From Thermoplasmata archaeon (GTDB lineage Archaea > Thermoplasmatota > Thermoplasmata > Lutacidiplasmatales > UBA184): a stretch of DNA of 34,944 bases. A program made the translations under genes and the position numbers. The notes beneath the pieces were generated by a model that was not told where the DNA came from, did not search any database, and saw only the letters and a program-made list of their open reading frames with translations. Location: assembly GCA_021816955.1 (NCBI GenBank), contig JAKAWP010000012.1, forward strand, positions 1 to 34,944. Direction: 5' to 3'. Positions 301 through 1,895 of this stretch are shown in pieces; position 1 is the first letter of the stretch; every line of letters begins with the position of its first letter.

Positions 301-1038
301 GTGAGTCCGAATCCGCCGGCTCGGCGGATGGAGCGCTGTCCGGTCTGCGCTACGATCGTCCGCACGGATCGCGTGGTGGTCCACTTACGATCGATCCATC
401 CGGATCGGGTCGACTCTCGGGAAGTGCTCCGCTACTTGCGGGATCGTCGGGAAGCGCTGGGCGCCACGGCACGGAGCGCCCGGCGACCGATGGGACGTGG
501 ATGGACCCGATGGCGCATCGTGGGGGTGATCCTTGCGGCGGCGGCCGTGAGCGGAGTGACCTACTACGTGTTGTTCCCTCCGAATCACCCGGCGGTCAAC
601 GACGGCTCGGCCGCGCCGGATTTTTCTTTCACCACGCCTAGTGGAGGGTCATCTCAGCTGAGCGCTTACGTGGGCCACCCTCTGGTATTGTGGTGGGTGG
701 CCACGTGGTGCAGCAGTTGTCAGCTTGCTACCCAGGTATTCGCCCAGCAGTATCTGTCGCAGTACGAGAACGCGCACGTGCTCCTTCTCGAAATGGAGGA
801 TTACAACGACCTCGGCCAATCCGGGCCGAGCATCTCGGCGATGGCGTCGGCGTATGGCTATCACGGCCAGTCGGGATGGGTGCTGGGCGTCGGGTCGTCG
901 TCCGGCACCTCCACCTACAACCCTCAGGACCAGCTCGATTACTACTACGTGATCAGCGGCTCGGGCGTCATCGTTTCGCAGGGCGCGGGACTCGGCGGGA
1001 ATTTCGCCGCCGCGTTGAGCGCGGCGACGGGGGGATGA
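301..1038 (+). CDS. Membrane-anchored thioredoxin-fold protein with N-terminal zinc finger
   Basis: About 245 aa from the GTG at 301, which has GGGAGG six bases upstream; the ORF track start (GTG 217) has no such site, and ATG 328 is another option. An N-terminal C2H2-like finger is visible: C13-x2-C16, then H28-x4-H33. A charged helix follows, then one membrane segment (about residues 73-92, IVGVILAAAAVSGVTYYVLF). The C-terminal half is a TlpA/thioredoxin-like domain with the redox pair C137-S-S-C140 in a WCSSC context, preceded by APDFSF as in peroxiredoxin/TlpA folds. The predicted topology puts the finger inside and the thioredoxin domain outside. The next gene, 22 nt downstream, encodes a membrane protein with two vicinal Cys pairs, so a thiol-exchange role is plausible. 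The oxidative or reductive direction and the partner are unknown. Confidence 0.8.
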   Translation: MSPNPPARRMERCPVCATIVRTDRVVVHLRSIHPDRVDSREVLRYLRDRREALGATARSARRPMGRGWTRWRIVGVILAAAAVSGVTYYVLFPPNHPAVNDGSAAPDFSFTTPSGGSSQLSAYVGHPLVLWWVATWCSSCQLATQVFAQQYLSQYENAHVLLLEMEDYNDLGQSGPSISAMASAYGYHGQSGWVLGVGSSSGTSTYNPQDQLDYYYVISGSGVIVSQGAGLGGNFAAALSAATGG

Positions 1039-1060
1039 GATTCCCCCGGTCGATCGGCGC

Positions 1061-1648
1061 GTGGAGACGATGGCCGCACGCCACGGGGCGCCCGGCGCCC
1101 CCGCGGTTCCGGATCGTTTCCCGGAGGGACCGGCCCTTCGGGAGATCTTCGCTCATCCGGCGTACCGCTGGGCGTATCCATTGCTCGGCGCGGGAATCGC
1201 CTTGGGGTATGCCTGGCTCCTCCCCGGCCTCGAACTTTGGAGTCTCGGCGTCTGGGTCATACAGTTTGTCACCCCGGTCCAACTGGCCTTCGCCCTGGCG
1301 ATGGGCGCGCTCCTTCCGTTGGTGATTCTCCTCAACGTGTACTACTGGCGGCATCCTTCCTGCTGCCGACGCACCTCGAGCACCGAGCGGGCTCCGATTT
1401 TCTCGGCCATTCTCGGCGGTGTCATTCCCAACCTCCTCTGTTGTACTCCCTTCATTCCGGTACTGCTCGCGGTGTTCCTCTCGGGGGCCGCCCTGCTGGC
1501 CGTCTCCCCACCGATCCAGTACGTGCTCAACGCCTATGCCTGGACATTCTATGCGGTGGCGGTCCTCAGCACTTGGTGGTCGATTCGAATGACGGCGCGT
1601 CGGTACTCGAAGGAGAGCCTCTGGTACGAGGCGCCGAGCCCGGAGTGA
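1061..1648 (+). CDS. Four-helix (approx.) membrane protein with two vicinal cysteine pairs
   Basis: 195 aa from GTG 1061 (METMAAR; the internal ATG at 1070 is an alternative). Hydrophobic segments lie at about 36-55, 64-94, 112-148 and 155-175. Two CC pairs stand out. C101-C102 sits in a charged loop (HPSCCRR). C127-C128 sits at the start of a membrane helix followed by TPFIPVLLA, which loosely resembles the Cys-Pro helices of CcdA/DsbD thiol transporters. I cannot assign it to that family by eye. It follows the thioredoxin-fold gene with a 22-nt gap on the same strand, so the two are probably cotranscribed. It may pass electrons to or from the thioredoxin domain; a metal-handling role is the main alternative. 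Downstream, 1649-1810 contains nothing recognisable. Confidence 0.7.
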   Translation: METMAARHGAPGAPAVPDRFPEGPALREIFAHPAYRWAYPLLGAGIALGYAWLLPGLELWSLGVWVIQFVTPVQLAFALAMGALLPLVILLNVYYWRHPSCCRRTSSTERAPIFSAILGGVIPNLLCCTPFIPVLLAVFLSGAALLAVSPPIQYVLNAYAWTFYAVAVLSTWWSIRMTARRYSKESLWYEAPSPE

Positions 1649-1810
1649 GTCGCGTCGGTGGCCCTCCCAACCCTTATTGCCCCGTCCCCACCCTCACCGA
1701 TCTCTTGGTCCCAGGGCCGCCACGGAGGTCCACCGTCCCTAGGCCGCCGGCGGGCAAAATCGGGCCGCTTCTGGAACGGGGCCGCGCGGCCTCCCGAGTA
1801 TTTCGGGAAG

Positions 1811-1895
1811 TGCAGGGGGTGAGATTTGAACTCACGAACTCCTTCGAGACCAGGACCTCAACCTGGCGCCTTTGACCAAGCTGGGCCACCCCTGC
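1811..1895 (-). tRNA. tRNA-Leu (anticodon GAG)
   Basis: Read on the minus strand, the sequence folds as a class II tRNA. The acceptor stem GCAGGGG pairs with CCCCTGC, with discriminator A. The D-arm is GGCCCAGCTTGGTC. The anticodon stem CCAGG/CCTGG encloses loop TTGAGGT, giving anticodon GAG (Leu, CTC codons). A 14-nt variable arm (TCTCGAAGGAGTTC) and a T-arm GTGAG-TTCAAAT-CTCAC complete the fold. The long variable arm agrees with leucine identity. No intron is needed, and CCA is not encoded. A TATA-like CATTAACG lies about 30 nt upstream. Confidence 0.95.

Follow-up and report, generated by a model that had tools for sequence, protein, structure and literature searches.

In bacterial mer operons, merA is accompanied by genes for an extracytoplasmic CxxC protein, MerP, which has an HMA fold with a GMTCxxC motif, and for a membrane protein, MerT, whose vicinal cysteines stand in a membrane helix and precede a P...SG...P pattern. 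The mer operons of archaea have been described as devoid of MerT and MerP, except for a merP homolog in Ferroplasma acidarmanus (PMC3466566). The merA cluster of Sulfolobus contains an ArsR-type regulator and a small TRASH-domain protein whose metal site was proposed to serve in mercury trafficking (PMC3466566). A survey of mer genes from 2021 lists three merA copies in Cuniculiplasma, and term searches of its text revealed no transport pair of the kind described below (PMC8261052).

A second group of systems with similar parts consists of thiol-redox couples such as ResA/TlpA/CcmG with CcdA/DsbD, in which a membrane-anchored CxxC domain of the AhpC-TSA/ResA type is combined with a cysteine-bearing polytopic partner. 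MauD and MauE likewise represent a thioredoxin-like protein with a small polytopic partner. Here, we analyzed a gene pair, A and B, of a Thermoplasmata archaeon that shares features with both groups. A search of open papers yielded no description of this pair. By profile, it belongs to none of MerT, MerP, CcdA, and MauE, and it may work like MerP/MerT.

Architecture and Predicted Topology of the A and B Proteins

The window, i.e., the whole stretch of 34,944 nucleotides that was analyzed, is an entire contig (C15), one of the 82 that make up a genome of 1.42 Mb, and gene A begins 300 bases into it. Gene A (301..1038, plus strand) has a GTG start at position 301 preceded by GGGAGG and encodes a protein of 245 amino acids, in which a C2H2 finger, a single membrane helix, and a thioredoxin domain with CSSC follow one another, as deduced from the ORF and a Pfam AhpC-TSA match. 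The starts of the homologs agree with each other in an alignment of 13 sequences and lie about 12 residues ahead of the finger. The finger comprises residues 13-34 (337..402, plus strand) with the pattern C13-P-V-C16-x11-H28-x4-H33 and was recognized in all 13 aligned sequences, in the structural model, and by a profile match. Hydropathy and charge count place the membrane helix at about residues 71-92 (511..576, plus strand), with the hydrophobic stretch at about 73-91, and the predicted model has a helix at residues 67-91. Residues 35-70 in front of the helix include 11 K/R and 5 D/E, compared to 0 K/R and 2 D/E in residues 93-128 behind it. Since the K/R-rich side precedes the helix, the finger is predicted to be cytoplasmic and the thioredoxin domain extracytoplasmic. 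A reading of this DNA made from the sequence alone (the sequence-only reading) had already joined finger, single helix, and WCSSC thioredoxin domain in one protein and had placed the finger inside and the thioredoxin outside; both ORFs were recovered at the coordinates given here, and the orientation fits the charge distribution. The motif C137-S-S-C140 (709..720, plus strand), which follows a tryptophan, lies in the predicted extracytoplasmic domain. In the alignment, C137 and C140 are invariant (13/13), and they are also present in three relatives from another family of the same class, termed f19. All 13 A proteins match Pfam AhpC-TSA (PF00578), and the domain scored above the cut-off.

Gene B (1061..1648, plus strand; GTG start at 1061 or ATG start at 1070) follows gene A on the same strand at a distance of 22-31 nt and encodes a polytopic CC membrane protein of 195 amino acids, as judged from the ORF, its homologs, and the helices of the model. 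Alignment and charges place C101-C102 (1361..1366, plus strand) in an R-rich, positively charged loop that is predicted to be on the cytoplasmic side. C127-C128 (1439..1444, plus strand) is located at a break between two membrane helices within the motif LCCTPxIP (here LCCTPFIP), as seen in the alignment and in the model, whose local confidence is low at the CC. In the 15 aligned B proteins of the family, C101, C127, and C128 are invariant (15/15) and C102 is variable. Therefore, of the two CC pairs named in the sequence-only reading, C127-C128 stood as a conserved pair, whereas the first is really a single conserved cysteine. C127-C128 is also kept in the f19 relatives, whose B proteins contain FCCTP, lack C101, and have an extra CC near the C-terminus. 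Protein B had no family above the cut-off in Pfam or NCBIfam, and nothing useful was retrieved when its model was submitted to a fold search (lowest E 2.9).

Distribution and Pairing of A and B

As the sequence-only reading requires, the two genes co-occur and are neighbors in relatives. B is present in 13 of 103 genomes of the family, all 13 of which also carry A, and in nearly all loci the genes are directly adjacent in the order A, then B. In the nearest relative (G041), merA, A, and B are consecutive and A is 65% identical. Outside the family, three f19 genomes contain an adjacent pair in the order B, then A. A scan of named genomes with B alone gave no match, and a scan with the A alignment gave 14 loci, 13 of which were titled Thermoplasmata archaeon and one bacterium. 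The close homologs come from metagenome-assembled genomes.

In one genome (G012, L046:5771-12407), an intact A and a remnant of B adjoin merA, and a few kb away an intact B is found next to a degenerate A that has lost both CxxC and finger. This complementary decay, seen in one genome, would fit A and B needing one another. The merA-A stretch of G012 is near-identical to that of G001 (L046, L047), which suggests a recent transfer or a mis-binned contig. B-like paralogs with VGCCGS or VGCGGT follow B in tandem at L052:9057-9680 and L046:9911-10519 (minus strand), and another one follows a lone finger ORF without thioredoxin domain at L060:2150-2953 (minus strand).

In the window itself, no relative examined matched positions 1-310, and six close relatives share no sequence upstream of the gene following the pair (2103-2717). 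The latter would be expected if the pair is an accessory insertion at this place. A tRNA-Leu(GAG) gene (1810-1895, minus strand) is located directly downstream of the pair; it was rejected as a conserved insertion site, as no tRNA was present within the 1.5 kb examined in relatives.

Linkage of the Pair to merA

When the ORFs surrounding the pair were clustered, a MerA-like flavoprotein was the only recurrent functional neighbor besides A and B; a large conserved beta-propeller protein was set aside because it belongs to a common surface-protein family. Three tested examples of the neighboring MerA exceeded the cut-off of NCBIfam TIGR02053 (523-535 bits vs. 454). In 10 of the 13 pair-bearing genomes of the family, merA adjoins the pair, in both codirectional and divergent arrangements. 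Within the family, MerA was found in 11 of the 13 pair-bearing genomes and in 3 of the 90 others (Fisher p 1.3e-10, relatedness ignored); for 350 genomes of the class, the numbers were 11 of 14 and 58 of 336, respectively (Fisher p 1.9e-6, relatedness ignored). Most MerA-bearing genomes of the class thus lack the pair, which shows that it is not required for MerA. In the f19 genome G162, merA is located about 1 kb from the pair, so that the linkage is seen in two families of archaea and in more than one gene arrangement; among the other f19 loci, the two with the highest similarity had no merA within the stretch examined. Four copies of the pair are located away from merA within the stretches examined, and in trees these copies are partly clustered and do not form one clade. 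Genes for thiol-redox proteins were observed near merA-distant copies (L054:3871-5921, L056:8150-9086).

In the window's own genome, merA is found on contig C57 (C57:66571-67961, minus strand; L154:8569-9965) and not near A and B. Its coding sequence is split between two frames that overlap, both catalytic cysteine motifs are retained, and the gene is either a young pseudogene or the result of an assembly error. The window contig might have continued into C57 to give a divergent merA-A-B cluster, but this was not supported, since 3 kb with another large ORF separate merA from the end of C57. With merA on another contig, a role in mercury metabolism of the copy in the window rests on its relatives.

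In 13 loci, merA is found together with a gene for an HxlR-type regulator (e.g., L044:264-860, L045:9864-10343, L046:8794-9222, and L053:7068-7526), also in the pair-less genomes G061, G031, and G011. Since MerR or ArsR is tabulated as the regulator of mer operons, the HxlR type seems to represent a separate kind of mer regulator. A small separate HMA gene was observed next to merA at L050:2833-3090 (minus strand), L049:1768-2025, and L115:8752-9033 (minus strand). It represents the detached N-terminal HMA domain, which is lacking in the adjacent MerA.

The sequence-only reading had suggested that the pair links envelope redox state to a contact with DNA, RNA, or protein inside the cell; its neighborhood points instead to mercury handling beside MerA. 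We consider it just about probable that A and B act together in the membrane as a module for the handling of Hg(II) on behalf of MerA, similar to MerP/MerT but built from different parts. Like MerP and MerT, the pair combines an extracytoplasmic CxxC protein with a vicinal-CC membrane protein beside merA. It differs in that A, in place of the HMA fold of MerP, has a thioredoxin fold anchored in the membrane and a finger on the cytoplasmic side, and in that B has additional N-terminal helices and no match to MerT above the cut-off: MerT (PF02411) matched none of 15 B proteins and was found in 0 of 200 genomes of the class above the cut-off. When the second half of B was aligned with MerT by hhalign (20 B and 8 MerT sequences), the CC was placed on the CC with an E of 9e-4, compared to 0.045 for reversed MerT and 0.13 for CcdA. 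With 15 B sequences the E was 0.02-0.05. Because the likeness was spotted before it was tested and the HH probability of the resemblance is only 23%, it is a hint and not proof of homology. The clusters also recall that of Sulfolobus, in which an archaeal merA is likewise accompanied by a small protein with a metal site, but contain an HxlR-type instead of an ArsR-type regulator and a membrane partner; the additional metal site is provided by a C2H2 finger that is part of a membrane thioredoxin rather than by a TRASH-domain protein.

In such a module, Hg(II) would be bound outside the cell by the thiolates of C137 and C140 of A, which lacks the cis-proline of the thioredoxin fold (see below), and would be handed from this dithiol to C127-C128 within the membrane-embedded part of B. 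It might then reach the cytoplasmic side through C101 of B, the CPxC side of the A finger, or both, and go onward to MerA for reduction to Hg(0). The pairing, the residue conservation, and the linkage to merA in relatives were observed, and the topology is predicted; that mercury is bound, that it moves in this direction, and that the finger is a cytoplasmic hand-over or docking site is what we infer from these features.

Comparison with Thiol-Redox Relays

The main rival explanation, doubtful but deserving serious attention, is a thiol-reductant relay like CcdA-ResA/TlpA or MauE-MauD. Cytoplasmic reducing equivalents would pass via C101 and C127-C128 of B to C137/C140 of A and serve to reduce or repair envelope proteins; beside merA, such a relay would keep thiols intact or restore them during exposure to mercury. 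Both a PDB profile search and a fold search gave ResA as the nearest relative of the A domain, and two of the merA-distant copies are in a fitting neighborhood, one near a membrane thioredoxin and a thioredoxin reductase, another beside MsrB/MsrA. Furthermore, none of 10 sampled genomes of the class contained CcdA (PF02683), vs. 15 of 50 others of the phylum, which makes a substitute conceivable.

The active site of A, however, deviates from that of ResA. At the cis-proline position of the thioredoxin fold, A of the window has D213 (937..939, plus strand), and all 17 A proteins have D or E there, whereas ResA and six of the seven generic thioredoxin-like controls that reach this position have P. 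Thus, A has the CxxC domain of ResA/TlpA-type proteins but not their cis-proline. This proline may keep metals off the active site (PMC2757866), and its absence in A is a hint at metal rather than disulfide chemistry. Nor does B resemble the known partners by profile. Among CcdA/DsbD profiles none matched B above the cut-off, the only hits being of DsbD_2 in two members (best E 0.12). MauE (PF07291) weakly matched residues 38-101 of B (E 0.019, 15.7 bits vs. a cut-off of 27) in one of 15 members, a region that excludes C127-C128, and methylamine dehydrogenase genes were not seen among the neighbors. The finger, the strong linkage to merA, and the dispensability of C101 in the f19 relatives set the pair further apart from these relays. 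The thiol relay of the sequence-only reading is most plausible for the copies away from merA, while the neighborhood as a whole favors mercury handling; a reductant relay was perhaps the ancestral role.

Conservation and Possible Role of the Finger

Conservation of the finger was evaluated in the 13 aligned A homologs. The four ligands, as the sequence-only reading had expected, and also V20, R21, D23, R24, and P34 are invariant (13/13). Mean identity is 57% in the finger and 59% in the thioredoxin domain, but only 19% in the linker beside the finger, which argues for a strong constraint on the finger and against a chance occurrence of its ligands. It is modeled as a beta-beta-alpha unit with a pLDDT near 88-90, and a profile search with it retrieved C2H2 fingers of solved structure at a best E of 3e-4; zf-Di19 matched weakly in 8 of 13 members. 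With two Cys and two His conserved in a predicted beta-beta-alpha unit, it can be assigned to the C2H2 fingers. Within the window's family, this finger type is nearly restricted to A. The same type (CPACGVKVREDRILAHKERVHP) was observed near the start of a large protein without thioredoxin domain in G035 (L218:674-1951).

The finger is absent from A of the three f19 relatives and of G020, a member of the window's own family, all of which keep the couple. This contradicts the initial view of the finger as integral to the couple and indicates that it is a family-level addition to a core formed by the thioredoxin and the CC membrane protein. The same absence weakens the proposal of a sensor or tether, which comes close to the sequence-only reading and in which the finger would contact DNA, RNA, the HxlR regulator, or MerA, the thioredoxin would sense mercury or redox state outside, and B would be an accessory. 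The finger is conserved as well as the catalytic domain, including non-ligand R and D residues, and HxlR-type regulators are encoded in the same clusters, but HxlR-merA also occurs without the pair in the three genomes mentioned above. Moreover, specific binding to DNA usually takes more than one finger. In view of these points, we regard a sensor or tether as unlikely.

Least likely by our estimate, and indeed very improbable, is a function for another soft metal such as copper, e.g., in Sco-like oxidase assembly, with the linkage to merA reflecting shared metal-resistance islands: the altered cis-proline site, Sco proteins among the weaker fold matches of A, and the four copies away from merA would fit, but merA is the sole recurrent functional neighbor, in several orientations and in two archaeal families, and copper or oxidase genes were not recurrent among the clustered neighbors.

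Discussion

The Hg(II)-handling module outlined above can be specified further. A and B might be an undescribed archaeal mercury importer with a thioredoxin-fold metal site outside the cell and a finger inside that acts as Hg(II) acceptor or as a dock for MerA, a more detailed proposal that we put forward as a tentative and rather doubtful one. The analysis points to a family of thioredoxin-fold proteins devoid of the cis-proline as possible binders of mercury, and a C2H2 finger tethered to the membrane joins the parts known from metal handling in prokaryotes. Should the pair instead relay reductant, it might take the place of CcdA in a class in which a small sample yielded no CcdA. How Hg(II) reaches MerA in archaea has been a gap, for which the pair provides a concrete and conserved candidate: in some acid-loving archaea, it is probably the mercury-handling step that archaeal mer operons were thought to lack.
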